Shown: piece by piece, positions 149-34,422 of the stretch
How the letters are laid out: each line of letters opens with the position of its first letter
Position numbering within the stretch: the stretch's first letter is position 1
IMG/VR virus record: IMGVR_UViG_3300005511_000019
Location: 1 to 43,674 of that record
Direction: 5' to 3' (one strand)
DNA from: a virus
DNA length: 43,674 nucleotides
The notes under the pieces: generated by a model
Told to the model about the DNA's origin: nothing
Database searches by the model: none
What the model saw: the letters and a program-made list of their open reading frames with translations, nothing else
Program-made: the position numbers and the translations under genes

Positions 149-880
149 TCAGCCCTTACGCTTCAACGGCATTTCGCCGTCCAGGTTATCAAAGGATCTG
201 ATCAGCGCGAGAGGTTGATCGCCAAGCGCGGGCAGATCGTCCGTTGTGAGAACGGCTTCGACATAGCCACCCTTTGATGTGCCGACGTCCGAAATTGTCT
301 GCGAGGGGACACGGTAGATGCGATAGCTGGTAGGACCCTCGACCACGACAATGAGCGAGATGAGGCGTTCGTGATCGTGCGGAAAGTGCACAACGGACGC
401 CTCAGCCTTTTTCGTGAACGCCTTCACAGAGATGGACTTCTGCGCGCCACCAATGATCGCATAGAGGTCGATTGACGTCTCTCCCGCTTCGGGAAAAGCG
501 ATGTGTCCCCCATTGAGTTGGATCATGCCGGCGATAAGGTTGGTGGCCCCGCCAGCCAGCGCTTTATGTTGCCGGCTTGCGATATCACTTTGAGCAGGGT
601 TAGTTCCGTAGGTCAGCCAGGCAGCATCAACGTTAAGCGCGCCAGCGATCATCTGGATAATATTTGGCCGAGGCTTATTATCACCCGCGAAATAGCGACG
701 AATGGCTTCTGGACTCAGCGTTTTGCCGAATTTCTGCTCGATACGTTCGCGCAGCCACTTCTGCTGTCCGTGCAATTGCGGGGCCTCACGGTGATTGCTG
801 ACCGCAGTTTTCAACCGCTTCGCGAACTCAGGGTCAGCCCAATTCGCGTGACGGCTCGGCTTTTTCGGATTTTCAGACAC
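149..880 (-). CDS. XRE-type phage repressor
   Basis: Probable transcriptional repressor of 243 residues. A helix-turn-helix region spans about residues 42-92 (from WLRERIEQ to DAAWLTYG), with the usual XRE pattern ending in an ALNVDAAWL segment. The C-terminal half is not recognisable as an S24 protease domain. The frame is open back to an ATG at 946, but I prefer the GTG at 880: it has GGAG nine bases upstream, and the longer form would run through a promoter and an operator. TTGACA-N17-TATTCA (946-918) lies upstream, and two 15-bp palindromes (906-920, 954-968) flank it, which suggests autoregulation. It is the best candidate for the protein that binds the genome-wide palindromes; this is inference. 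Confidence 0.8.
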   Translation of the reverse strand: MSENPKKPSRHANWADPEFAKRLKTAVSNHREAPQLHGQQKWLRERIEQKFGKTLSPEAIRRYFAGDNKPRPNIIQMIAGALNVDAAWLTYGTNPAQSDIASRQHKALAGGATNLIAGMIQLNGGHIAFPEAGETSIDLYAIIGGAQKSISVKAFTKKAEASVVHFPHDHERLISLIVVVEGPTSYRIYRVPSQTISDVGTSKGGYVEAVLTTDDLPALGDQPLALIRSFDNLDGEMPLKRKG

Positions 881-905
881 GACAAATTTCTCCGACGACA
901 ACTCG

Positions 906-920
906 TCAACGGAGTGTTGA
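906..920. promoter_or_regulatory. Operator-like palindrome 1
   Basis: TCAACGGAGTGTTGA, an imperfect copy of the 15-bp consensus TCAACATAATGTTGA. It overlaps the -10 of the repressor promoter. Confidence 0.65.
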
Positions 921-946
921 ATATCCACAATCCGAATCACTGTCAA
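918..946 (-). promoter_or_regulatory. Promoter of the repressor gene
   Basis: On the minus strand TTGACA (946-941) is followed 17 bases later by TATTCA (923-918). The -10 box lies inside the palindrome at 906-920, and the second palindrome sits just upstream of the -35. Confidence 0.55.
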
Positions 947-2864: not shown

Positions 2865-4037
2865 TCACCCGAGGAGTTCTGCGAACGGGGTCACGTCAGC
2901 AGCGACTGAATCAATCTGGCGTAGGGGCTGGAAACTTGCCGCCTCGGCTTCGAGGAACGCTTCGATGAAGACGCGCGTCGCTTCGGCATCGACTGCATTG
3001 CCATAACCGCGCAGACGTCCCACGCGGGCGGCAGCCCCATGAGCCAGCGGGAATGTGCCGGGTTCAACTGGCCGCCACTTTCCATCCCGGCAGAAAAGCC
3101 AGTCAACATCTCGCCAGAGGCCGTTAGTCGGGCCGGCCCATCTGCCCGCAAAGCCGCGTGATTGAGCGTGATGTTCGGCGTCGTGAATTCCCGGTCCGGA
3201 TGACGCAGCGCATCCGTCGTCGTCGTCGTGGGCCAGCCGGTTAAAGCGCCCATCGTCACCAAGTCCGAATTCGGCCGCCCATTGTCCCGTCGCGTGTCCG
3301 CTCCTCCCTGATCGTCTGCCTTCTTCGGCGATGGCCATCCTGCCAAGTTCGCCTGTCGAGGAAGTTGATCCAGCCGCTCCGATCCGTCCGATCTCGGTTT
3401 GATGTCCGCGCCCGAATCCTTCCAGTCCCTGGTGGTGGTGGTGACCCAACTCGTCAGCGCGACATCCGCCGAGAGGGCGCCATTCGCCTGATTTGGTCCA
3501 CCTTTCGAGCCATTCGTTGCCCGAGGCGTATTCCAGCTCTGTTGCGGCAAAGCGGAGGCGTTGGCGGATGTGCGGCGCGCCACTCCCCGCAGAGCAGGTA
3601 TCGAGAGCCCCTGCGGCGTAACGCGTTCCTTCCATGTCAGCTTGAACAAGGTCGAGCCAAGCAAGTCCGTCTTTACTCGCAACCTGCTCGCCAAAGACGA
3701 CTGAAGGGCGCTCGATCTCGATGAGATAGTGCCAGAATGGCCATAGGTGCCGCTCGTCATCAAACCCGCCGCCTTGGCCTGCCGAGGAGAAAGGTTGGCA
3801 CGGGCAGCTTCCGGTCCAGAGAGGGCGGTCGTCAGGCCAGCCAGCGAGGCGGGCAGCGTAGCTCCAAACACCGATGCCGGCGAAGAAATGGCATTGGGTG
3901 AAACCTCGGAGGTCAGAAGGTCGAACATCCAGAATGCTCCGTTCGTCGACAACGCCGGGCGCGATATGGCCTTCGGCTATAAGCTCGCGCAACCATGCGG
4001 CAGCGAACGGGTCGATCTCGTTGTACCAAGCGGTCAT
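2865..4037 (-). CDS. DNA cytosine-C5 methyltransferase
   Basis: Transfers a methyl group from S-adenosylmethionine to C5 of cytosine in DNA. Motif I FFAGIG is at about residues 51-56, motif IV PCQPFSSAG (catalytic Cys) at 79-87, the ENV equivalent as FGEQV at 115-119, motif VIII QRLRF at 159-163, and motif X RLRGYGNAV near the C-terminus. Length is 390 residues. The target-recognition region (about 180-300) is low in complexity, with HHHH and DDDD runs, because the same DNA also encodes a second long frame (2891-3928). The protein ends in FAELLG, a variant of the tail shared by other proteins here. It probably protects phage DNA from restriction. An operator-like palindrome lies at 4051-4065, just upstream of the start. 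Confidence 0.9.
   Translation of the reverse strand: MTAWYNEIDPFAAAWLRELIAEGHIAPGVVDERSILDVRPSDLRGFTQCHFFAGIGVWSYAARLAGWPDDRPLWTGSCPCQPFSSAGQGGGFDDERHLWPFWHYLIEIERPSVVFGEQVASKDGLAWLDLVQADMEGTRYAAGALDTCSAGSGAPHIRQRLRFAATELEYASGNEWLERWTKSGEWRPLGGCRADELGHHHHQGLEGFGRGHQTEIGRIGAAGSTSSTGELGRMAIAEEGRRSGRSGHATGQWAAEFGLGDDGRFNRLAHDDDDGCAASSGPGIHDAEHHAQSRGFAGRWAGPTNGLWRDVDWLFCRDGKWRPVEPGTFPLAHGAAARVGRLRGYGNAVDAEATRVFIEAFLEAEAASFQPLRQIDSVAADVTPFAELLG
2891..3928 (-). CDS. Overlapping-frame protein inside the methyltransferase gene
   Basis: A second open frame of 345 codons inside the cytosine methyltransferase gene on the same strand. The start at 3928 (MFDLLTSEVSPN) has GGAG eight bases upstream. The sequence is not random: it contains TLFKLTWKERVTP, three GW-[PV]-x-T/S-type segments, and GGQLNPAHSRWLMGLPP. 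From memory, strings like these recur in phage proteins annotated as hypothetical or methyltransferase-associated, which suggests real dual coding. No function can be assigned. The alternative is that codon bias in a GC-rich gene keeps the frame open by chance, but the recognisable strings argue against that. Confidence 0.5.
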   Translation of the reverse strand: MFDLLTSEVSPNAISSPASVFGATLPASLAGLTTALSGPEAARANLSPRQAKAAGLMTSGTYGHSGTISSRSSALQSSLASRLRVKTDLLGSTLFKLTWKERVTPQGLSIPALRGVARRTSANASALPQQSWNTPRATNGSKGGPNQANGALSADVALTSWVTTTTRDWKDSGADIKPRSDGSERLDQLPRQANLAGWPSPKKADDQGGADTRRDNGRPNSDLVTMGALTGWPTTTTTDALRHPDREFTTPNITLNHAALRADGPARLTASGEMLTGFSAGMESGGQLNPAHSRWLMGLPPAWDVCAVMAMQSMPKRRASSSKRSSKPRRQVSSPYARLIQSLLT

Positions 4038-4045
4038 ACGTCACT

Positions 4046-4786
4046 CTAAATCAACATAGAGTTGATTATCAACTCGAAAGGAGACACCCGGAGTATTTTC
4101 ATTTCCCACCGTTTTGCTTCCCGCCAATCGTTAGCGTTTCGCCCTTGTTTGCGCGCAGCAAATGACCAAGCCATTGAGTCGGCCGTCCATAAAAGATTTC
4201 GAACAATATCTGACGCCAGCGCGGTCGTTTTCAGACCGAAGCCATGTAAGAGTAGATCAGGCCGGGCAGTCTTAATCGCGGTGAGCACCTCTTCGATCGC
4301 CGATGGATCGCCATTCCGTTTACAGACACTTCCGACACCGACCCAAGCGCCATGAGCCAGCCGATCACCGTACATTTCGATATGGCGCACGTAGTCAACA
4401 GGCGAATACCCTTGCAGAACTGGCATGATGTACACGCCACCAGTGTCGCAAGTGATTAAAGCGTCGTAACGCTCGATTGTCAGGCGCTGATGCTCCTCAA
4501 TCGTCTTGCCTGTGAGCGCCAGCATATGCGCCTCGCACATGTAGTCTTGTGCCACAGCGGCGAGTAAATTTCCATGAGTTGACCACCGCTTTATTTGGTC
4601 AGCATAGAATTCGACGCCTTCAGGATATCCGCCATGTGTCAAGATAGTCGTAAACGCACCGCTATCCATTATCCACGATTTTGCTGCAATTGGCTTTATG
4701 CGCTTCCGAATGCGATTTACTGAAATGAAGGCGTGATTGAAATGCGCCGCATCAGACGGCTGATGTAACCCGACAAAAAACCTCAC
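4046..4786 (-). CDS. dpdA: DpdA-like DNA guanine transglycosylase
   Basis: Related to tRNA-guanine transglycosylase. DpdA proteins swap guanine in DNA for a 7-deazaguanine base such as preQ0, which blocks many restriction enzymes. Family features seen: N-terminal RFFVGLHQPSDA, then MDSGAF (equivalent of the TGT DSGGF active-site loop), AVAQDYMCE, VGVGSVCKRNG, LHGFGLK, and ADSMAWSFAARKQGR, whose Asp matches the TGT nucleophile position. Length is 246 residues. The frame is open to 4822, but the GTG at 4786 fits the family N-terminus and overlaps the upstream stop as GTGA. No QueC, QueD, QueE or FolE gene is visible here, so the precursor would come from the host or from genes outside the window. 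Confidence 0.82.
   Translation of the reverse strand: MRFFVGLHQPSDAAHFNHAFISVNRIRKRIKPIAAKSWIMDSGAFTTILTHGGYPEGVEFYADQIKRWSTHGNLLAAVAQDYMCEAHMLALTGKTIEEHQRLTIERYDALITCDTGGVYIMPVLQGYSPVDYVRHIEMYGDRLAHGAWVGVGSVCKRNGDPSAIEEVLTAIKTARPDLLLHGFGLKTTALASDIVRNLLWTADSMAWSFAARKQGRNANDWREAKRWEMKILRVSPFELIINSMLI
4051..4065. promoter_or_regulatory. Operator-like palindrome 3
   Basis: TCAACATAGAGTTGA. It overlaps the last codons of the dpdA-like gene and lies 14 bases upstream of the methyltransferase ATG. Confidence 0.65.
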
Positions 4787-4881
4787 TTTTTGACTCTGCC
4801 CAGCAGCCAATGCGCTCCCCACGCGATATACGTGACGGCCACGATGGAGGGTAGAATGAGACCTAGCGGATCGTCGAACAT
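4783..4881 (-). CDS. Tiny membrane protein upstream of dpdA
   Basis: Thirty-two residues starting MFDDPLGLILPSIV and ending LLGRVKK. One hydrophobic segment (about residues 6-28) with positive residues after it predicts a single membrane span. The stop TGA overlaps the GTG start of the dpdA-like gene (GTGA), so the two are translationally coupled. The start lies 13 bases downstream of the palindrome at 4895-4909. There is no clear Shine-Dalgarno. Function unknown. Confidence 0.55.
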   Translation of the reverse strand: MFDDPLGLILPSIVAVTYIAWGAHWLLGRVKK

Positions 4882-4894
4882 GGCGATAATTTAA

Positions 4895-4909
4895 TCAACT
4901 CTATGTTGA
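4895..4909. promoter_or_regulatory. Operator-like palindrome 4
   Basis: TCAACTCTATGTTGA, between the DNA polymerase stop and the tiny membrane protein/dpdA pair on the minus strand. Confidence 0.7.
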
Positions 4910-4917
4910 TTATCAAG

Positions 4918-6990
4918 TTATGAAAGACTGCCAATAATCCGCTTCCCGACAAAGACGTCTTCGAGGAGTTGCTGATAGGCTGACGGCGCGGTAGCTGGCA
5001 CCTCGTATCCAACCGCTCTGAGGATGTCGTAGGCCTCGGCGATGTAGCGCGCATAATCGAGATCGGTTGGCATCTCGTCGGGCAAGGTCATCGCCGGCTT
5101 ACACCCATCTGTCTTCGAGACCTTGGGGCGATTGCCGGTCTTCGGATGCCCCTTGACCTTGATGATCGGATCGCCGTCCGTCGACCAGTAGTAGCGCACC
5201 ACCTTGCCGAGATAGTGATCCCGCCAGGTGCCGCCTCCCGTGGCCTTCACGACGGTCACGAAGCCCCTGATGTCGGTGTTGCCGCGGATCGTCTCCTCGA
5301 TAGGCGTACCGTCCTTGAGGAAGGCTAGGACCGCATCACCGCAAATCGTCATCTGCGGGTTCTTCTTCATCTGCTCGCGGCCGGGATCATAGTCCGGCGA
5401 CTCGGGATGCCAGTGATTGGCGATGGCCCCCTTCCGCTTCGCCTTCCCGTTCGCCTTGATCGCGAAGTAGGTGTTGACGTCGCGGTTGTAGATCGAGCGG
5501 TACTCGGCGAATTCCAGCTCGAAACCGGTCTTCTGCTCCCACCAGTCGGTGATCTCCTTGAGCTTGCCACCGAGGAGGCGATCCTTGTCAGGCCCTTCCT
5601 TACCGATACCCTCGAACATCGAGCGCGGGCAGCGGAACACCACGCCATCGGTGTTGCCCGAAACGACGGAGATGCTGGCTGCCTCGGCCCGCTCGATCAG
5701 CATCAGCAAGGAGAGCTGTCCGGTGAGGGTGACGGCGATCATCAGGTGCGGAGCGTAAAGCACGCTGTAGATGCTGCCGAGCTTCCCGTAGGCGCCATTG
5801 AGCGCGATCTTGCCACCTTTGTCGCGTGCGAGCGCCTGGCGCTTCTCAGCTTCGAGCGCAGCAATGCGATCCTGTGCGGCGACGAGGGCTGCGGGATCGA
5901 GAGCACGCAGCGGCGCGAGCTGGTCGTTGATCAGCTTGGCCTGATGCTTGGCCTTGACGCGATCGTCGATGAGGCTGCCGTAGACAGGCAGGAACGATGG
6001 CCCGAGCGATTTCGGATAGAGCCCCAGCTTCATGATGATGCGCGGGTATTGGCTGGCCACGTCAGCGTCGACCAGGACATAGTCGTCATCGGAGTGGACG
6101 GCGCGACAGCTCTCGGTCGAATGCAGGCCGCCGATTCCCATTCGATAGGTCGACGATCCGATCGTGATGTTGAAGTCGTCGAATGCCTTCGGAAATTCGA
6201 CCTTGCCGTTGCGATCAATATGCAGATCGGTCTTACGGATCGTGTCGACGATCTCCCGCATTTGTGGGCTCTGAAATTCGAAGAACTCGGGCACCTGGTA
6301 GCGGAAGCTCGTGCCACCGATGTTCCTGGGCCTTTCGGCGCGCTGCTTGGTGATCGTCTCGACGCGCTTCTTGATAATGGCTTCACCCATCTGCGCATCG
6401 GATTTCGAGCGGAAATCCATGCCGTACTGCCGACCGAGCGCTTCACGAAGCTCCAGCGGCTCGGCGAGAGCGTTGAACAGGTTCTCGGTCGCGTCGAGAT
6501 CGCTCGTCAGGCAATAATCGGCGACGATGTCCATCTGCTCGGGCGACAGGATGGTCGCCTCGTCATACGGCAGATCCTGCAAGCGCTTCCCGTGCAGCCG
6601 ACCATTGAGCGTCTTGAGGCCGTCCTTCACCGCGGGATTGGGCTCGAACAGATCGATGTGGTTGAGCTTCGGAATCTTGATGTCGAGCGCTTCTTCGACT
6701 TCCCACCACCGGAGCCCGCCCTTGATGATCCGATCGCTCGCGATCTTGAGGTCGTCATTGCTGGCACCGCTCAAGGCCAGGAATATCATCGGCACGTCGT
6801 ATGGCAGGCTGTTGAAGCCGATCGAGAGGTTGTTCTTCATGATCTGCCGGATGCGACCGCGGTCGAAACCACCCGTAAGATCAGTTCGCTTGCTGAATTC
6901 AAAGCCAACGCGACGCCCGTCTTCGAGACGCTTGATGCCGATGTAGAAGAAATTGCGATAGCATTCGACGTCGACAAAGAGCGTCGCCAT
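4918..6990 (-). CDS. Family B DNA polymerase
   Basis: Replicative DNA polymerase of 690 residues with a 3'-5' exonuclease domain. The exonuclease has DVECYRN at about residues 7-13, FNSLPYD near 59-65 and DYCLTSDLDAT near 158-168. Polymerase motif A is DADVASQYPRII (about 308-319), motif B KIALNGAYGKLGS (about 394-406) and motif C SGNTDGVVF (about 445-453), where the usual DTDS is NTDG as in several phage PolB proteins. The ATG at 6990 has AGGAGG four bases before it; the longer frame to 7086 lacks such a site and would run over a palindrome. It is clustered with SSB-like and nuclease genes. Confidence 0.88.
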   Translation of the reverse strand: MATLFVDVECYRNFFYIGIKRLEDGRRVGFEFSKRTDLTGGFDRGRIRQIMKNNLSIGFNSLPYDVPMIFLALSGASNDDLKIASDRIIKGGLRWWEVEEALDIKIPKLNHIDLFEPNPAVKDGLKTLNGRLHGKRLQDLPYDEATILSPEQMDIVADYCLTSDLDATENLFNALAEPLELREALGRQYGMDFRSKSDAQMGEAIIKKRVETITKQRAERPRNIGGTSFRYQVPEFFEFQSPQMREIVDTIRKTDLHIDRNGKVEFPKAFDDFNITIGSSTYRMGIGGLHSTESCRAVHSDDDYVLVDADVASQYPRIIMKLGLYPKSLGPSFLPVYGSLIDDRVKAKHQAKLINDQLAPLRALDPAALVAAQDRIAALEAEKRQALARDKGGKIALNGAYGKLGSIYSVLYAPHLMIAVTLTGQLSLLMLIERAEAASISVVSGNTDGVVFRCPRSMFEGIGKEGPDKDRLLGGKLKEITDWWEQKTGFELEFAEYRSIYNRDVNTYFAIKANGKAKRKGAIANHWHPESPDYDPGREQMKKNPQMTICGDAVLAFLKDGTPIEETIRGNTDIRGFVTVVKATGGGTWRDHYLGKVVRYYWSTDGDPIIKVKGHPKTGNRPKVSKTDGCKPAMTLPDEMPTDLDYARYIAEAYDILRAVGYEVPATAPSAYQQLLEDVFVGKRIIGSLS

Positions 6991-7057
6991 AAGGCCTCCT
7001 CGGCGAAATCCAGGTTCGCCCATGTGGAAAGCCGTCGCCACGGAAGCGACGGAACAA

Positions 7058-7072
7058 GCAACATTATGTTGA
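7058..7072. promoter_or_regulatory. Operator-like palindrome 5
   Basis: GCAACATTATGTTGA, between the SSB-like gene and the DNA polymerase gene, 68 bases upstream of the polymerase ATG on the minus strand. Confidence 0.65.
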
Positions 7073-7122
7073 ATATCCCGACGCACTTATGGCGTCGGGA
7101 TACTGGCGTCAGGGATCAGCGA

Positions 7123-7857
7123 TCAGATGCCGAGACCGTCGTCATCATCGTCCTTCTTGGACGATCCGCCGCCGACATCGAGATCATCGTCGTCGAGGCC
7201 ATCGCCTTCCTCGTCCTCGAACTCGTCATCGACATTGGTGCGGGCGCCGCCACCGAACGCCTCGCCGTCCTTGGCGAACTGGACGGCCTCGATCGAGCAG
7301 TTGATGCGCTTGCCGTACTCCTCGTCGTCCTGCGCCCAAAAGCGCACCTTGGCGTTGACGTAGCAGCCGGAATACGGGGCGTCGCGCTCACCCTCCTCGA
7401 CGTCGGGGAAGCGCATGGCGCCATCCGACTGCCTGACCTTGCGGGGGCCGATGATGCGGAACGGGCGCTTCGGGCGCTGCGACTCCTCCCCATCCTTCGG
7501 CCCATAGCTCGTGCGGCTGGCCGAGACGTAGTAGCGCCCGGCATAACCGGCCCATTCCTCCTCGTCGCCGTCGCGCATCGCCAGCTTCTCACCCTTGATC
7601 TTGGGCGGGTCGGTCGGCCACTGAGCATCGCGCGCCTCGACCATTTTGGCCTTGATCGCCTTCTCCATAGCCTTGCCTTCAGCACTGTCCTTGTCGGGCA
7701 GCAGAAGGTTGATGCTGTTGCGGAAGGGGATCTTACCAGCGTGCTTTCCCTTCTTCCTGCGGTCGCCGGCCTCGGCGACAAAGAGGGTGTCGGCAAAAGA
7801 CAGCCGAACCGCCTTGAGCATGATGATTCCGATTTCGTCCTTTTTGGCCTCAGCCAT
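7123..7857 (-). CDS. DUF2815 ssDNA-binding protein
   Basis: Probable single-stranded DNA-binding protein of the DUF2815 (T7 gp2.5-like) type, 244 residues. Family features are LKAVRLSFADTLF near the start, a central YYVSASRTSYGP segment, and GCYVNAKVRFWAQ before the tail. The C-terminal 40 residues are very acidic and end DDDDDGLGI, like the protein-docking tails of other SSBs. The ATG at 7857 has GGAG nine bases upstream. It lies between the DUF2800 nuclease and the polymerase, the usual order for this phage module. Confidence 0.85.
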   Translation of the reverse strand: MAEAKKDEIGIIMLKAVRLSFADTLFVAEAGDRRKKGKHAGKIPFRNSINLLLPDKDSAEGKAMEKAIKAKMVEARDAQWPTDPPKIKGEKLAMRDGDEEEWAGYAGRYYVSASRTSYGPKDGEESQRPKRPFRIIGPRKVRQSDGAMRFPDVEEGERDAPYSGCYVNAKVRFWAQDDEEYGKRINCSIEAVQFAKDGEAFGGGARTNVDDEFEDEEGDGLDDDDLDVGGGSSKKDDDDDGLGI

Positions 7858-7879
7858 CGTCGTTCTCCAGAGTCTCGTT

Positions 7880-9088
7880 TCAGTCGATTTCGTCGAACTC
7901 TTCCTCGATCGCGTTGATCGCGGGTCGAGCATCCTCCACCGGAACCAGGATGGGTTTCGGCTGGCTCTGTTCGACAAGAGCCGTAGGAATTTCGTACTTC
8001 TTGCCGACTTCCTTCTCAGCCTGGGCCGGGGATTTCAGCTTCTTGTTGAAGGGGTCGGCAGACGGCAGCTTCTGCGAAAGGAAGGCCTCCGCAGCCTGCG
8101 GGTTGGCCCAATTGCGCTTGCCGCGGCGTCCCGCGACAGCCTTCTTGCCGGCAGTCGGGCCGTGATCAAGCACATGCTGCAGCGCCTGCGCGTGGCAGTA
8201 TTCCAGCATTTTTTCGATATGAGGCTTCAGCTCTGAGATGCGGATCAACCGCTCGGGCGTCAGAAATTCGACGGTTGGCGGTTTCCACGTTTCGGCGGGT
8301 TCATCCAGATCCCCGAAGTCGAGGTCAATGGCGTCAGCCAGCCATTTCGCGTGCGCAGGGCAGCCTCCGGGGCGCTCCGCCACGTTCGCGGCTGGGCACC
8401 ATTTGCACTGATATTCGCCGGGCGTCAGTTCAGCATCGTCCGCATCACAGGCCTGAGCTGCCGCGACAATGCGCTTCTCGTGCTCGCGCAGCTCGGCGAG
8501 CGTCACGTACCAGTAGCCGCCGCCAGCCGAATTGCGAGGCTGATCGATGATGATCAGGAACGTCTCACACTCGGGCGCGATGTGCTTGATGATCTGCTCA
8601 TAGGCCGCGAGCAGATAGACAATTTGCTGATCGTTTCCGACCGCCTGGACCGGCACGCCTTCACCGGCCTTGAGGTCCGAGAGCACCGAGAGTTTTTTGC
8701 CGACAACGAGGCAGTCGAGCGTTCCACTCTGAGGCTTCCCGTTCTCGTCATGGCCGACCCACTTGGTGGTGTTGACCTTCTGCTCGACATACATTTGGCC
8801 GGCGAATTCGCGGATCTCATCAATGCCGTCTTGAACCGCATCGGCCAAATCGTCGGTGAATTCCCACACGACGCCGTTGATCTTCATCTTGAAGCCGATG
8901 AAGTCGTAAGCGTCGAAGCCGAACTCCAGGCATTGTTCGCGCACGGCGTGGCACATCGTGCCTTCATCGGCCGCCGCAGAGCTTTCGTTCGGATAGTCCC
9001 GCGTCAGCCGCAACGAGCCGGCGCAGCGCGTCCAGCGCGCGGCGTCGGAGGGGCGTTTGCGGAATCCGGTGCGGACGTGGACGTTCAT
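7880..9088 (-). CDS. DUF2800 RecB/Cas4-like nuclease
   Basis: PD-(D/E)XK nuclease of the DUF2800 family, 402 residues, probably an exonuclease for phage recombination or replication. The N-terminus has a conserved SDAARWTRCAGSLRLT, typical of a Cas4/RecB-like fold that begins with a Cys. The nuclease core has YVEQKV, GTLDCLVV, LSVLSDLKAGEG and QIVYLLAAYE. Cysteines at CKWCP and GGCPAH could bind a metal or iron-sulphur cluster together with the N-terminal Cys. It ends in an acidic EEEFDEID tail and starts 14 bases after the 63-aa gene. Confidence 0.85.
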   Translation of the reverse strand: MNVHVRTGFRKRPSDAARWTRCAGSLRLTRDYPNESSAAADEGTMCHAVREQCLEFGFDAYDFIGFKMKINGVVWEFTDDLADAVQDGIDEIREFAGQMYVEQKVNTTKWVGHDENGKPQSGTLDCLVVGKKLSVLSDLKAGEGVPVQAVGNDQQIVYLLAAYEQIIKHIAPECETFLIIIDQPRNSAGGGYWYVTLAELREHEKRIVAAAQACDADDAELTPGEYQCKWCPAANVAERPGGCPAHAKWLADAIDLDFGDLDEPAETWKPPTVEFLTPERLIRISELKPHIEKMLEYCHAQALQHVLDHGPTAGKKAVAGRRGKRNWANPQAAEAFLSQKLPSADPFNKKLKSPAQAEKEVGKKYEIPTALVEQSQPKPILVPVEDARPAINAIEEEFDEID

Positions 9089-9432: not shown

Positions 9433-9951
9433 TCAGACGCCGAGACCGTCGTCGTCATCCTCGCCACCCTCGTCGATCGACGAGACCGGATCGGCGGCGA
9501 GACGGCCGATGCCATGGCCCTTGTCGGCCTTCTTGGCGGTCTCGTGCAGCCACTTGTGCAGGATGCCGATCTTCTCGGCATCGTTCTCGATCTCGGGCAG
9601 CTTGCCGATCTTGAGCTTGTCGTTCTTGAACACCTTCGCGAGGGCGTCCTTGCGGGCCGTCACCTCGGGATGGACGCCGTCAGGGTTCTCCTTGTCGGAC
9701 TCCTTGGCGAACTCGCCGAGCCAGGCCGTCAGGTCCTTCTTGAGCGTGTCGAAGCTCGGGCCGGAAGCCGCGCCGGCATCGTTGTCCTTCGGTTTGCGCG
9801 TGCGGGTCGTCTTGGGATCATCCTTGCCGGCGTCGCCGTCGTTCGATGCAGCGGCCTTGCCGGCGCCGGCCTTGGCGAGCACCTGCTTCAGCAGATCATT
9901 GTGTTCCGCCAGCAGTTCGTTGTTGCGGGTCAAAAGGTCTTCGAGGGCCAT
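9433..9951 (-). CDS. Acidic-tailed accessory protein of the replication module
   Basis: 172 residues, no recognised domain. An N-terminal amphipathic helix (LLTRNNELLAEHNDLLKQVL, about residues 6-25) looks like a short coiled coil. A charged low-complexity linker and a central helical domain with LTAWLGEFAKE follow. The end, EDDDDGLGV, nearly duplicates the SSB-like protein's tail, DDDDDGLGI. It is the first gene of the minus-strand operon, read from a promoter at 10036-10008. A role in replication, perhaps competing for the same partner as the SSB tail, is inference. Confidence 0.7.
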   Translation of the reverse strand: MALEDLLTRNNELLAEHNDLLKQVLAKAGAGKAAASNDGDAGKDDPKTTRTRKPKDNDAGAASGPSFDTLKKDLTAWLGEFAKESDKENPDGVHPEVTARKDALAKVFKNDKLKIGKLPEIENDAEKIGILHKWLHETAKKADKGHGIGRLAADPVSSIDEGGEDDDDGLGV

Positions 9952-10473: not shown

Positions 10474-12951
10474 ATGCTCGACACTGTAAGACACCTGGTT
10501 GACGCCGGGTTCGCTATTCATCGTCTCCATCCCAAGTCCAAGCGTCCCATCGGCGACGATTGGAGCACGAAGCCTTTTCTGTCGTTCGACCAGCTCAAGC
10601 GCATCTATCGTGATGGCGAGAACCTGGGCGTTCGGCTCGGCCAATGGTCGAAGGTTGGCGGCGGCTTTCTGCATGCGCTCGATCTCGACATTCGCGATCG
10701 GAAGCTGGCCGGCGAAGCGCGCGCGAAGCTCGGCGAACTATTTCCCGGCTGGAAAGAGATGCCAACTGTCGCCTCGGGCTCGGGTGGCGAAAGCCGGCAC
10801 ATCTATTTCCTGAGCGACAAGCACTTCCCCTCGACCAAGCTCGCGCACAGCGCTGAGAAGATCGAAGGACCGGACGGCACGAAGCATTGGGCCTGGGAGA
10901 TCGAGCTGTTCGGCACGGGCAAGCAAGTCGCTCTGCCGCCCTCTATCCATCCTGACACTGGCCGCCCTTATATCTGGACCAAACGCTTCGATTTCAGCGC
11001 TCTCGAACTCGGAATCGGCCCCTTTGTGCCGGCCGAGACGATTGAGGAACTGATTGGAGCCGACGACGAAGACGCGCTCGATCCTGAAAAGCAACAACCG
11101 CTCGGGCTCTCCGTAGATGAGATCCGCGAACTGCTCGACGAAATCCCGAACGACGATCTGGACTATGACGAGTGGTTGAACGTCATGGCCTCGGTGCAGC
11201 ACGAGGCCTTCGGTCGCGAGGAGGAAGAGCGGAAAGCGATCTTCGAGGTCTTCCGCGCCTGGTCTGCGCGCTCGAAGAAGCATGACGATCGCACCTGCCG
11301 CTACAAGTTCTTCTCCTTCAAGAACAAGGAGAGCCGACGCCATCGCACGATGCGGTCGATCCAGGCGGAAGTGCGCGAGCTACGGCTTGAAGCTGAATTC
11401 GACAATCTGGAAGACGAGTTCGACGATCTCGGCGACATGCCGGATATCGGCGAGGAGGATGAGCCCGAAGGCGACAACTCCATCATCGACGATCTGCTGG
11501 GCTTATCGGCTGCGCCTCGCAAGGAGGTCACGAAACGCCAGCAGAAACTGAACAAGGCCGACGTCGAACAGAAGCTAGGGTTCGTCCCGCCCAAAGTCGC
11601 GCGCATCAACAAGAAACACGCCGTCGCCTTCATCAACGGCAAGACGGTGATAGTCACCGAGAACAAGGACGGCTCGGTCAGCTATGGTACGGTCGGCGAT
11701 CTCCACAACTTCTACGAGAACGATCGCGTCGCGACGGAAAAGGCCACTGAGCCCCTGACGAAGGCGTGGCTACGGCACAAAGCCCGGCGCGAATACCCGA
11801 ACGGCGTCGTGTTCGCGCCGGGCGAGGATGTCGAGGGGGCCTATAACCACTGGCGCGGCTTCGCCGTCGAGCCGAGCAAGCGCGGCTCCTGCAAGCTGAT
11901 CCTCAAGCACATCAGAGCGATCATCTGCCGCGGCGACGAGACGGCCAACACCTATTTCGTCGGCTGGCTCGCTCACATGATCCAGAAGCCGTGGGAAAAG
12001 CCGGGCGTTGCCGTGGTGCTGCGTGGCGAGAAGGGCACCGGCAAGGACACGATCGGCGACTATGTCGGCGGCCTGTTTCCGCACCATCACGTCAAGATCG
12101 CCAATCAGGAGCATATGGTCGGCCGCTTCAACGCGCACCAGGAAAAGTGTCTGATGCTCCATGTCGAGGAAGGGTTTTGGGCCGGCAATAAACAGGCCGA
12201 AGGCATGCTGAAGCACCTCATCACCTCGGAGAAGGTGCTGATCGAGCCGAAGGGTCTGAACGGCTTCCACGTCAAGAGCGTCCTGCGGCTGTTCATGTCG
12301 TCGAACGAAAAATGGGTGGTGCCGGCCTCCGAAGATGAGCGCCGGTATTTTGTCCTCGACGTTGATCCGCGCTTCAGCCGCAAGCGCAGCGACGACGAGA
12401 CGCGCGACGCCTATTTCGACGCGATCCGCCAGGAGATGTTGAACGGCGGCCGGGAAGCGCTCTTGCACTATCTGCAGAACTACGACCTGTCGGATTTCAA
12501 TGTCCGCGCTGTGCCGAATACGGCTGCCCTGGCCGATCAGAAGCTCCAGGGTCTACGCAATATCGAGCGTTGGTGGCATGGCCAGTTGCAGAGCGGCGAG
12601 CCCGACTTCCCGTGCTTCCACGAGGAGCGCGCTGGCGACTGGCCGCGCGAGACCATCAGCGCCGATCGGCGCGAGTTCCGCGACGCCTATAGCCGCTGGA
12701 TGCGCTCGCGCCGCTATGATGGTGAGGAGCTGCGCGACGTCGATATCGGCAAGCATCTGCGGGCAATGTGTCCCGAGGTCCGCGAGACGCGGCCGAACAG
12801 CGGCGGTGGCGGCGCGCGCCCGCGCACCTATCAGTTCCCGATGCTGGAAACGTGCCGCCGAGCGTTCGAAGTGTGGATCGGTTCTGAGTTGGAATGGCCG
12901 GACGATCTGCCCGATCCACCGTCCGACGAGTACGATGATCTGCTTCATTAA
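10474..12951 (+). CDS. Primase-polymerase/helicase fusion
   Basis: Bifunctional replication protein of 825 residues. The N-terminal 200 residues look like a bifunctional prim-pol domain: HALDLDIRD (about 68-76) holds the metal-binding Asp pair, with SGGESRHIYF and GTGKQVALPPSIH following. A PriCT-2-like segment (YDEWLNVMASVQHEAFG) follows. The C-terminal half is a DUF5906/SF3-like helicase with Walker A GEKGTGKDT (about 518-526), Walker B-like CLMLHVEEGFW and the sensor-like LFMSSNEKWVVPA. A linker at about 337-343 reads IIDDLLG and the last residues are YDDLLH, both resembling the shared DLLG tail. It starts 44 bases after the HTH gene. Confidence 0.88.
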   Translation: MLDTVRHLVDAGFAIHRLHPKSKRPIGDDWSTKPFLSFDQLKRIYRDGENLGVRLGQWSKVGGGFLHALDLDIRDRKLAGEARAKLGELFPGWKEMPTVASGSGGESRHIYFLSDKHFPSTKLAHSAEKIEGPDGTKHWAWEIELFGTGKQVALPPSIHPDTGRPYIWTKRFDFSALELGIGPFVPAETIEELIGADDEDALDPEKQQPLGLSVDEIRELLDEIPNDDLDYDEWLNVMASVQHEAFGREEEERKAIFEVFRAWSARSKKHDDRTCRYKFFSFKNKESRRHRTMRSIQAEVRELRLEAEFDNLEDEFDDLGDMPDIGEEDEPEGDNSIIDDLLGLSAAPRKEVTKRQQKLNKADVEQKLGFVPPKVARINKKHAVAFINGKTVIVTENKDGSVSYGTVGDLHNFYENDRVATEKATEPLTKAWLRHKARREYPNGVVFAPGEDVEGAYNHWRGFAVEPSKRGSCKLILKHIRAIICRGDETANTYFVGWLAHMIQKPWEKPGVAVVLRGEKGTGKDTIGDYVGGLFPHHHVKIANQEHMVGRFNAHQEKCLMLHVEEGFWAGNKQAEGMLKHLITSEKVLIEPKGLNGFHVKSVLRLFMSSNEKWVVPASEDERRYFVLDVDPRFSRKRSDDETRDAYFDAIRQEMLNGGREALLHYLQNYDLSDFNVRAVPNTAALADQKLQGLRNIERWWHGQLQSGEPDFPCFHEERAGDWPRETISADRREFRDAYSRWMRSRRYDGEELRDVDIGKHLRAMCPEVRETRPNSGGGGARPRTYQFPMLETCRRAFEVWIGSELEWPDDLPDPPSDEYDDLLH

Positions 12952-15659: not shown

Positions 15660-15974
15660 TCAGCCGAGCAGATCTTCGTAAATGGCGACGATCGGTGGCT
15701 TGGGCCGGTACTCCCAATGCCGGCACCCTTTGGCATCGACAATGCGAGAGCCGCTTTTCTCCCATCCGAGCTTCTTGGTGAGGATGAACGCGATCCGCTG
15801 AGCTTCCGCAGTTTGCAGATCACGCGGGTTTCGCTTGAGCCCTTTTCCCCATAACTGGACCATCGTGATCGACGACTGCCGCGCCAACCATTTGCGGATC
15901 GTCCGCATCTCCTGAATGAACAGGCGGTCCTCTCGGAATTTCCTCACGCTCGCCTCCCGCGATTTCCCAGCCAT
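15660..15974 (-). CDS. Unknown protein with DLLG tail
   Basis: 104 residues, basic, starting MAGKSREASVRKFREDR and ending AIYEDLLG, the tail shared with other proteins here. The middle has TAEAQRIAFILTKKLGWEKS and CRHWEYRP. No family recognised. An alternative ATG lies six bases upstream; the palindrome at 15995-16009 sits just upstream. The gene is transcribed toward the terminator at 15626, alone on this strand. Confidence 0.6.
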   Translation of the reverse strand: MAGKSREASVRKFREDRLFIQEMRTIRKWLARQSSITMVQLWGKGLKRNPRDLQTAEAQRIAFILTKKLGWEKSGSRIVDAKGCRHWEYRPKPPIVAIYEDLLG

Positions 15975-15994
15975 AACCATGCCTGAAGCGCGAG

Positions 15995-16009
15995 TCAACA
16001 TAATGTCGA
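15995..16009. promoter_or_regulatory. Operator-like palindrome 8
   Basis: TCAACATAATGTCGA, one mismatch from consensus, upstream of the minus-strand gene at 15660-15974. Confidence 0.7.
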
Positions 16010-16027
16010 TTAGCAAAAGTGCTCAGA

Positions 16028-17379: not shown

Positions 17380-17652
17380 ATGGAACATGCAAACGCCACC
17401 CTGCCGCACACACGGCTAGAGGCGCGCTCGCAAGGCAGTCGCCTTTATTGGGGCCTGCAGTGTGAGGCGCATCCCGGCTCGCCACGCTATACGGCCAACG
17501 CCCGATGTGTGGCCTGCGCCAAGCTCGATCGGCAGGCGAGGGGTAAGGCTAATCCTGCCTATGATGCGGCGCGCAAGCGCTTGGCCAGGGCACGCCTTGC
17601 GGCTGAACGAGCTGCAACCGTCGCCCCGCAGTTCGCCGATTTGTTGGGCTGA
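17380..17652 (+). CDS. Small Cys-rich protein with DLLG tail
   Basis: 90 residues. The segment RLYWGLQCEAHPGSPRYTAN then CVAC aligns with the N-terminal Cys-rich region of the neighbouring HNH protein, so it looks like that zinc-binding domain on its own. It ends APQFADLLG, the shared tail. No nuclease residues are present. Possible roles are a regulator of, or competitor for, the HNH protein's DNA site; this is inference. Confidence 0.65.
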   Translation: MEHANATLPHTRLEARSQGSRLYWGLQCEAHPGSPRYTANARCVACAKLDRQARGKANPAYDAARKRLARARLAAERAATVAPQFADLLG

Positions 17653-31823: not shown

Positions 31824-32162
31824 ATGGCCGATGAAGACGACGCGTTGGGGCTCGATGAGGAGTCCGAGGTGCCTGCCTCCGACCGGAAGGTGAAGAGGCA
31901 GGACAACAAGACGATCGATCCCGACAGCCTCAATGGTGACAATCAGCTCAAGAGCATTGTTGAGCGGATCGAACGGCTTGAGGAAGAGAAGAAGACCGTC
32001 GCCGACGACATCAAGGAAGTCTATGCCGAGGCCAAGGGCAACGGTTACGACACCAAGATCTTGCGCAAGGTCATCGCCCTTCGTAAGCGTGACCTCGACG
32101 AGCGCAAAGAAGAGGAATCCATCCTCGAATTATACTTGGACGCGGTCGGACATACTGCCTGA
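31824..32162 (+). CDS. GapR-like nucleoid protein (DUF2312)
   Basis: 112 residues. The segment [20 protein letters not shown] then [20 protein letters not shown] is the hallmark of DUF2312/GapR, a Caulobacter-type protein that binds overtwisted DNA ahead of moving polymerases. Host forms are about 90 residues; this one has a charged 30-residue N-terminal extension. A phage GapR could support its own replication or compete with the host one. It supports an alphaproteobacterial host. Confidence 0.9.
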
Positions 32163-32395
32163 TGACTGATTTCGAGCGCTTCTTCGAGACTGAATTTCCC
32201 GAGCGACTGCGTTCGGTCGGGGATGAGGTCGGGGCGCTGTCGAACGGTCTCCCGCTGAGGGATGCGAGTTGGGATCGCAAGGCAGCTTTCCTCCTTTGGG
32301 AAGCGCTCGGTAAGCCCGCCCCCGTCGTTCACGCGCCGGCCAAGATTGCTCTCAACCAATTGGCTGAGCGCATTTTCGAGGATCTGCTCGGATGA
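32162..32395 (+). CDS. Small protein 1 of the DLLG series
   Basis: 77 residues, starting at the last base of the GapR stop. The body is helical (DFERFFETEFPERLR to AFLLWEALGK) and the end is IFEDLLG. GAGG inside the tail codons lies 10 bases before the next ATG. Function unknown. Confidence 0.65.
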   Translation: MTDFERFFETEFPERLRSVGDEVGALSNGLPLRDASWDRKAAFLLWEALGKPAPVVHAPAKIALNQLAERIFEDLLG

Positions 32396-32628
32396 CGTCG
32401 CTCGATACCCTGTTCGATCGAGCACGCCACGAGAAGCTGCGCATCGGCATTTTGGCGCAGGGCACGCACGGCGGCTGGCATTGCTATGCCTATCGAAAGA
32501 CCAAGCTTCACGGCGTCGGCTTCGGCGCCACGCCGGAAGCGGTGCTCGAACTGGCCATCAACGGTCACAGCTACATCGAGAAGCCGCCTGAGCCGGTGGC
32601 CTCGCAATTTGCGGATTTGCTCGGATGA
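32392..32628 (+). CDS. Small protein 2 of the DLLG series
   Basis: 78 residues. The middle, GTHGGWHCYAYRKTKLHGVG then GATPEAVLELAI, looks like a small alpha/beta unit with an aromatic core. It ends SQFADLLG. The start overlaps the previous stop (ATGA) and its own stop overlaps the next start. Confidence 0.65.
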   Translation: MTSLDTLFDRARHEKLRIGILAQGTHGGWHCYAYRKTKLHGVGFGATPEAVLELAINGHSYIEKPPEPVASQFADLLG

Positions 32629-32855
32629 AAGCCTTGGAAATCGGAGTCTACCAGCGCGTCAGCGGCGAAGGACCGGAGTTCCTGTCGCGACCACTCGTCA
32701 ACGAGAAGGAGCGCCTGATCTTCACTGGCGCTACGGCGGCTGAAGCCGAGGAACGGGCTCGCGCCTGGTATCAGAAGAACTTCGAGCCGCAGCGTGGCGC
32801 ACCCGTTCGCGCCAAGGTGAAGGCCGCCGACGAGTTCGAGGATCTGCTTGGATGA
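32625..32855 (+). CDS. Small protein 3 of the DLLG series
   Basis: 76 residues. The body has FLSRPLVNEKERLIFTGATA and AAEAEERARAWYQKNFEPQ, a helical segment that resembles phage DUF proteins ending RAxxWYxxN. It ends DEFEDLLG. Coupled to both neighbours by four-base overlaps. Confidence 0.65.
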   Translation: MKALEIGVYQRVSGEGPEFLSRPLVNEKERLIFTGATAAEAEERARAWYQKNFEPQRGAPVRAKVKAADEFEDLLG

Positions 32856-33130
32856 AGACGCTCGACGAATTGCTGCGCGAGACCGCGGCCAAGGGCGAGC
32901 TGAACTATCTCTCGATCGCCTGCACTGAAAAGGGATTCGAGGTCGCCTACCGGGGAGTCAAACGCTCTGACGGCTCGATACGCGCTCACCGCGACCCCGT
33001 CTGCGCCGTCATGCTGGCTCTGACCGGCAAGCCCGGTGAAGAGCCAGCGCCGCGTGCGCGCAAACAGCGAGCCCGGCAAGCTGAACCGGCCGCCGCCCCG
33101 CGTGATGCATTCGACGACCTGTTGGGATGA
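32852..33130 (+). CDS. Small protein 4 of the DLLG series
   Basis: 92 residues. KTLDELLRETAAKGELNYLS and GFEVAYRGVKRSDG, then a basic linker (RARKQRARQAEP), ending RDAFDDLLG. Its stop overlaps the methyltransferase start. Function unknown; the linker-plus-tail layout fits a flexible docking peptide. Confidence 0.65.
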   Translation: MKTLDELLRETAAKGELNYLSIACTEKGFEVAYRGVKRSDGSIRAHRDPVCAVMLALTGKPGEEPAPRARKQRARQAEPAAAPRDAFDDLLG

Positions 33131-34422
33131 CCATGTCCGTCAAACTCTACGAAGGCGATAATCGAGTTGTGCTGCGCGAGATGGCCGAGCGCGGTGAGCT
33201 GGTGGATTCCGTCTTCACCGATCCACCTTATGGCCTCGTGAGCGTCACCAAGCGCTTCGGCAAGGATGGGTCGAAGGCAGCGAAGCATGGCCGTGACGGC
33301 GCCTTCGCACGCCAGTCGCGCGGCTTCATGGGCAAGCAATGGGACGGCACCGCCATCGAGCGTGATCCTGAGTTCTGGCAGCTCGTCTACAACGTGATGA
33401 AGCCCGGCGCCTATATCGTCGCGTTCTCGTCGAGCCGCACCTATCACCATATGGCGGTCGCGATCGAGGCCGCGGGCTTCGTCACCCATCCCATGATCGG
33501 ATGGGTGTTCGGCTCGGGTTTCCCGAAGGCACACAATGCCGCAATGGCGATCGACAAGCAGTTAGGTGCCAAGGGTGCAGTGAACGCCACTGGTGAGCCC
33601 GTCCGTCGCATTCGCCCCGGCGCTGACCAACACAAGGACGGCTCCTGGGAAAAGCTCGAAGATCGGGTCTACCAACCGGGCACGTATGAGCCGGCCACGC
33701 CCGAGGCTGCGCAGTGGCAGGGATGGGCGTATGGCGGTCAGGCCCGCAAGCCGGCGCTAGAACCTATCTACGTTGGCCAAAAGCCGTTCTCGGAACCCAA
33801 TGGCGCAGCCAACATCCTGAAGCATGGCGTCGGAGCAGTGAACATCGACGGATGTCGTGCCGGCGAGCGATATCCTGCCAATCTAATTCTGGACGGCTCT
33901 CCCGACGTTGAGGCCCTATTCCCTTACACCAAGAGCGGCAAGCCCGGCGTAATGCGCAAGGGTCAGAACGACGGCGCCTGTTACGGCGCCGAAAGTCGAG
34001 CCCCCGGCACGGCGATGACGGGCTTCGGCGATGAGGGATCGGCGGCGCGCTTCTTCGAGAGCTATCCGTTCGACGGTGAGCCCGTCTTCTACCGCGCAAA
34101 GGCCAACAAGCTGGACCGCGCCGGCTCACGCCATCCGACCGTGAAGCCGGTATCTCTCAACCAGGCGCTCATCCGCCACGTCACGCCACCAGGCGGCCTT
34201 GTGCTCGATCCCTTCGCCGGGAGTGGCACGACCGGAGCAGCGGCGCTCGCGGAAGGCATGCGGGCCGTCCTGATCGAGATGGAGGCCGAATATGCGGCCG
34301 ATATCAGGCGTAGGCTCAATCTGACGCATCCAGCGAGTACACTCTTCTCGGATCTGCTGGGTGAAGCTGCGCCTGATAATTCAACACAATGTCGAATTTC
34401 GTTCGAGGATCTGCTTGGATGA
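33127..34422 (+). CDS. Beta-class DNA methyltransferase (N4-cytosine or N6-adenine)
   Basis: 431 residues. Motif IV DPPYG at 32-36 precedes motif I DPFAGSGTTGAAAL at about 361-374, the beta-class order, with YDxxGxW-like features absent. GWVFGSGFPKAHN, ANILKHGVGAVNIDGCR, YPANLIL and HPTVKPVSLNQ are hallmarks of phage adenine or N4-cytosine enzymes. It would protect phage DNA or alter its regulation. The C-terminus has two tails: LFSDLLG at about 406-412, then EAAPDNSTQCRI and SFEDLLG at the end. The first looks like the original end, read through after loss of its stop codon. Confidence 0.88.
   Translation: MTMSVKLYEGDNRVVLREMAERGELVDSVFTDPPYGLVSVTKRFGKDGSKAAKHGRDGAFARQSRGFMGKQWDGTAIERDPEFWQLVYNVMKPGAYIVAFSSSRTYHHMAVAIEAAGFVTHPMIGWVFGSGFPKAHNAAMAIDKQLGAKGAVNATGEPVRRIRPGADQHKDGSWEKLEDRVYQPGTYEPATPEAAQWQGWAYGGQARKPALEPIYVGQKPFSEPNGAANILKHGVGAVNIDGCRAGERYPANLILDGSPDVEALFPYTKSGKPGVMRKGQNDGACYGAESRAPGTAMTGFGDEGSAARFFESYPFDGEPVFYRAKANKLDRAGSRHPTVKPVSLNQALIRHVTPPGGLVLDPFAGSGTTGAAALAEGMRAVLIEMEAEYAADIRRRLNLTHPASTLFSDLLGEAAPDNSTQCRISFEDLLG
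34381..34395. promoter_or_regulatory. Operator-like palindrome 23 inside the methyltransferase end
   Basis: TCAACACAATGTCGA, within the read-through extension of the methyltransferase, 24 bases before the ATG at 34419. It would have been intergenic before the stop was lost. Confidence 0.55.

Follow-up and report, generated by a model that had tools for sequence, protein, structure and literature searches.

The window analysed here, i.e., the whole stretch of 43,674 nt, is the IMG/VR virus record IMGVR_UViG_3300005511_000019. Since the record is linear and no terminase, portal or capsid genes were found in it, it was regarded as incomplete, and the absence of a gene from it is no proof of absence from the phage. 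The gene of interest, dpdA (4046..4786, minus strand), has a GTG start and encodes 246 aa; it was predicted from PF23859, phrog_1279, AlphaFold2 and Foldseek to be a TGT-like enzyme inserting 7-deazaguanine into DNA. An ORF of 32 aa with a single helix (4783..4881, minus strand) precedes it, and the coupling by GTGA described in the initial annotation was confirmed, the TGA of the ORF overlapping the GTG start at 4783-4786. The upstream neighbour of these two genes encodes a phage DNA polymerase (4918..7086, minus strand; phrog_1252, E 4.5e-186) and the downstream neighbour a C5-type DNA methyltransferase ending in TPFAELLG (2865..4037, minus strand; PF00145, 26.3 bits against a cut-off of 22; phrog_363, E 1.4e-73). 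An N4/N6-type DNA methyltransferase ending in SFEDLLG is encoded at 33127..34422 on the plus strand (PF01555, E 2.5e-25). Both methyltransferases had been recognized from the sequence before, and three kinds of modification of the phage DNA are possible. Two of about 25 copies of a palindromic site also lie here, TCAACATAGAGTTGA (4051..4065) 5' of the C5-methyltransferase gene and TCAACTCTATGTTGA (4895..4909) 5' of the peptide-dpdA unit.

The protein had been called DpdA-like, with TGT-type motifs, and the profile searches bore this out: it matched the Pfam family DpdA, PF23859 (E 6.6e-40; 137.3 bits, curated cut-off 27), and phrog_1279, annotated as queuine tRNA-ribosyltransferase (E 1.5e-65), and the motifs (D41-SGAF, D81, Q125-G126, G150-VGS, H181-GFG and D203-S) are kept in the relatives. 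Alignment of the relatives showed no variation (90/90) at D41, S42, D81, Q125, G126, G150, G152, S153, C155, H181, G184, D203 and S204. Asp41 (DSGAF; codon 4664..4666, minus strand) and Asp203 (TADSMAW; codon 4178..4180, minus strand) would correspond to Asp102 and to the nucleophile Asp280 of TGT, judging from the motifs and from the weak Pfam TGT match of a distant relative (L145) rather than from a superposition. The AlphaFold2 model has a mean pLDDT of 94.6, and its only weak part is the last ~15 residues (codons 232-246; 4049..4093, minus strand). Foldseek placed a TGT (2ash, E 8.5e-7) and the DNA preQ0 insertase DpdA (7ui4, E 9.1e-7) on top, with TM-scores by query length of only 0.57-0.63, and a TGT-type fold is predicted. 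No match to the TGT profile PF01702 was obtained up to E 1, no relative was found among solved structures searched by sequence with the window protein or profiles, and PADLOC, used for defence-system assignment, gave no match for DpdA. The GTG start is supported by the fact that most of the relatives found start at the same residue. Identity to many relatives is 67-76% in a clade ranging from 45 to 100%, and an identical copy lies on a second IMG/VR contig, which could come from a related sample.

The cysteine cluster that binds zinc in TGT near the C-terminus is absent from the window DpdA after Asp203. Three or more cysteines at that place were counted in 1/103 clade members, whereas such a cluster is present in the members from mycobacteriophage Larva and from Lentzea. 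That the clade does without the cluster after the predicted catalytic Asp is one of three new points of this study.

Another new point is that the peptide gene and dpdA form a low-GC cassette inserted between the polymerase and C5-methyltransferase genes. L155 and L176 are the nearest relatives as judged by the polymerase; in both, the polymerase gene is directly followed by that of the C5-methyltransferase, and dpdA has no match anywhere in the 74-kb record of L155. The cassette has a GC content of 51.2% vs 59.5%, within the lowest 1.4% of stretches of that length, and one copy of the palindromic site TCAACAnnnTGTTGA stands at each of its ends. The last dpdA codons read through the copy preceding the C5-methyltransferase gene. 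About 25 TCAACAnnnTGTTGA sites occur in the window vs 0.75 expected (e.g., at 906, 954, 4051, 4895, 10033, 24834 and 31785); 19 are fully intergenic though the window is 88% coding, and they mostly lie within 35 nt of gene starts. An XRE-type repressor gene (149-946, minus strand) has two copies at its start. The site was not seen in relatives and is possibly a phage-wide operator.

In line with the initial annotation, no gene for QueC/D/E or FolE was found in the incomplete record. QueC and the preQ0 transporter family YhhQ/Vut_1 had no match in it, and among the Pfam matches and the 25 PHROG families shown for the 41 other window ORFs there was no que/folE family. Similarly, QueC was above the cut-off in 0/45 dpdA-bearing virus records. 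Among 22 host genomes carrying close DpdA relatives, a strong QueC (E < 1e-50) was present in 16/22 and TGT in 20/22. Together with the published cases of lone dpdA, these counts make the host the likely source of the precursor. This part of the earlier proposal is supported; the part in which the 32-aa peptide takes up the base is not. When dpdA of phage 9g was expressed by itself in E. coli, preQ0 of the host was incorporated into plasmid DNA (PMC6884629). Hutinet et al. (2019) listed 76 phages with dpdA and without synthesis genes, for which host preQ0 or uptake was proposed (PMC6884629). In the Pantoea phage MED16, which has dpdA and no preQ0 genes, dADG amounts to ~0.13% of G and gives no visible protection from restriction; in phage 7-11 a 7-deazaguanine makes up ~0.02% of G (PMC8306585), in both cases presumably from host precursor. 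Based on these data for Hutinet's phages, 9g, MED16 and 7-11, the main idea of the initial annotation had already been published for the group. In three of the host genomes (G003, G004 and G009) a second QueC was observed ~4 kb or less from a weak TGT-like match; these are perhaps chromosomal DNA 7-deazaguanine islands.

The idea that the 32-aa peptide is a partner bringing the precursor into the cell draws on the recurrence of directly coupled small helix ORFs before dpdA in ~6 lineages (9/107 relatives vs 6/677 control genes, the gene starts of the controls being rough). However, the peptides show little sequence likeness and look unrelated, more than 90% of the relatives have none, the known transporter family YhhQ is far larger (Pfam model of 152 positions) and absent from the window, and most host genomes make preQ0 themselves. 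We consider an uptake partner highly improbable. Translational coupling would be the simplest role: the small ORF is probably independent, and its translation before dpdA would aid that of dpdA.

The known beta-clamp motif has the form Q1-L2-x-L4-F5 and is C-terminal (PMC4549789). Tails of the same kind follow the core in most relatives of the window DpdA, e.g., QMEMF, QYGLF, QHSLF, QLPLPL and QIPLPL, the Q lying a median of 13.5 residues from the core end in relatives with such a tail. A clamp-type motif (QxxLF or QxxLPL) was found after the core in 76/103 non-redundant tails vs 5.5 +/- 2.2 by shuffling. The strict QxxLF/MF form occurs in 37/103 tails (0.7 expected) and never in 23,751 core residues, and the QxxLP[LF] or QxxMP[LF] form in 15/103 (0.2 expected). 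The motif stands in the last 23 residues of 75/103 DpdAs vs 24/820 of the remaining long ORFs in these loci. It also occurs just past the core in distant Sphingomonadaceae relatives (QCELPL in L146, QSELF in L148). In the window DpdA, a motif of the QxxLF type is absent from the C-terminus, and the protein ends with SPFELIINSMLI. The putative clamp-type tail of the clade and its apparent loss here are the new and testable part of this study; a literature search of partial coverage turned up no account of a DpdA that binds a clamp. The tail may serve docking on the host clamp. For a DNA-modifying phage enzyme that binds a sliding clamp there is a precedent in the alpha-glucosyltransferase of T4 (PMC13216743); its partner, gp45, is the phage's own clamp, whereas that of the clade DpdAs would be the host's. 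A frameshift as the cause of the missing tail was considered and rejected: translation of the palindrome in the other frame gives NQLYVDLE, which was treated as coincidence because many site copies yield similar strings.

The tail was also compared with the presence of an own polymerase, defined by a PF00476 or phrog_1252 match, in 72 long dpdA-bearing virus records. Four of the 72 encode one, i.e., the window, L035, L060 and L219. The relaxed motif was found in 0/4 of these vs 61/68 polymerase-less records (p = 3e-4) and, in the non-redundant set, in 0/4 vs 43/50 (p = 0.001), in a comparison that was drawn up after three of the four cases had been seen, the fourth coming from a second batch searched later, in which one of the four polymerase calls (L035; G039) is below the Pfam cut-off and record fragments may hide further polymerases in the polymerase-less group. 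A search with PF03175 (DNA_pol_B_2) gave no match, controls included, and is uninformative. Some polymerase-less members are also without the motif and have TLLSxM tails (e.g., L013 and L017). On balance we lean towards the clade DpdA being clamp-tethered: phages replicated by the host replisome would bring it to new DNA by way of the host's beta clamp, with 7-deazaguanine made by the host, and the tether would be lost in phages that have a polymerase of their own.

The window DpdA may thus be described as a real and probably active lone DpdA of a known kind on an inserted cassette, and, the clamp tail aside, the enzyme is ordinary. It would replace guanine bases of DNA with a 7-deazaguanine (preQ0 or one of its derivatives) drawn from the host queuosine-pathway pool. 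The exchange would be a double displacement of the TGT type, in which Asp203 would attack as the nucleophile and Asp41 would serve as general acid/base. Other clade members would dock on the host beta clamp via the flexible tail and modify DNA just behind the fork, a docking that would be lost once the phage brings its own polymerase. Its cassette is inserted between the genes of the polymerase and the C5-methyltransferase, and the DpdA encoded there has no clamp tail. As the phage has its own polymerase and its DpdA no clamp tail, the enzyme should work without host-clamp docking, probably at low occupancy. Taken as a whole, a cassette-borne lone DpdA with a host-supplied base, in which the clamp tail of the clade has been lost, is in our opinion a fairly probable explanation; it is built on the computed family, predicted fold, invariant residues, insertion, tail loss and motif statistics, and from these we infer activity, substrate, clamp binding and low occupancy.

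Other readings of these data were weighed against it. The protein could act on tRNA or other RNA instead of DNA, as a phage TGT helper, and the TGT fold and the name queuine tRNA-ribosyltransferase in several databases are in line with this. However, the Pfam match is to DpdA and none to TGT was seen up to E 1, the C-terminal cysteine cluster is missing, the gene sits between those of a DNA polymerase and a DNA methyltransferase, and the clamp-type tails of relatives point to DNA; an RNA target is very unlikely. The missing tail, the foreign GC content and the absence of the cassette from the nearest relatives would also suit a decaying relic, with an enzyme that is inactive or irrelevant. Against such decay, 13/13 tabulated catalytic-type residues are intact in an unbroken frame, the 67-76% identity to many relatives goes with a high-confidence predicted fold, and the second IMG/VR contig (L006), possibly of a related sample, holds the identical copy; decay is unlikely, if less so than an RNA target.

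A larger doubt attaches to the tail itself. The motif is short and clamp binding is predicted from sequence, so the conserved tail could bind a partner other than the clamp or be a functionless sequence habit. Yet both the pentapeptide and the QxxLPL forms occur repeatedly in one position across diverse lineages, including the distant L146 and L148, at a frequency far above that of shuffled tails and other proteins, and the absence of the motif coincides exactly with a polymerase encoded by the phage. A non-clamp tail keeps a small but real probability, and docking on the host clamp is preferred.

Comparison with known systems places the window phage beside group 3 of Hutinet et al. (2019), the dpdA-only phages (e.g., Salmonella phage 7-11, Pantoea phage MED16 and mycobacteriophages). 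There, dpdA occurs without preQ0 synthesis genes, none of which was found in the incomplete window record either; a host precursor was proposed, and low-level modification was measured in MED16 and 7-11. However, the mycobacteriophage and actinobacterial DpdAs are 35-37% identical to the window clade (whose members share 45-100% identity with the window protein), and those of 7-11 and MED16 were not linked to it by tblastn and, unlike most clade members, are without a clamp-type tail. The DpdAs of Sinorhizobium phage phiLM21 and Rhizobium phage RHph_TM3_3_3 belong to the window clade (~60% identity), and their genes are, as in the window, lone, situated in the early region and close to genes of DNA methyltransferases. 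Their proteins end in QMEMFA, whereas the window DpdA, whose phage has its own polymerase, does not. With TGT and the bacterial DpdA 7ui4, the window DpdA shares the predicted fold and the order of active-site motifs, but it has 246 aa vs 355-413 aa in the solved chains and has no cysteine cluster following its predicted catalytic Asp.

The lone DpdAs published so far form a large group among those of phages and have to act on sufficient DNA with no precursor genes to support them. A clamp tag would be a direct and testable answer to when and where they act. A motif of five residues would set host-replisome phages apart from self-replicating ones, and the clamp-type tail could help to find, at little cost, further phage DNA modifiers that are coupled to replication.

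Several other C-terminal features were observed. Longer DpdA-like proteins of 300-335 aa occur in L145-L150, which are Sphingomonadaceae genomes and one labelled Bacillus, and several have a clamp-type motif between the core and an extra C-terminal domain. In the window, eight unrelated ORFs, including both methyltransferases, end in the motif F/Y-x-D/E-L-L-G (2865-4037 and 15660-16016, minus strand; 17380-17652, 32162-32395, 32392-32628, 32625-32855, 32852-33130 and 33127-34422, plus strand), with 0 expected. Five proteins of the nearest relative, phage G097 (L155), have the same end, both methyltransferases again among them, and it looks like a putative shared docking tail. An SSB-like protein and a 172-aa protein (7123-7977 and 9433-9951, minus strand) end in acidic DDDDGLG tails, and the primase (10474-12951, plus strand) ends in DEYDDLLH.
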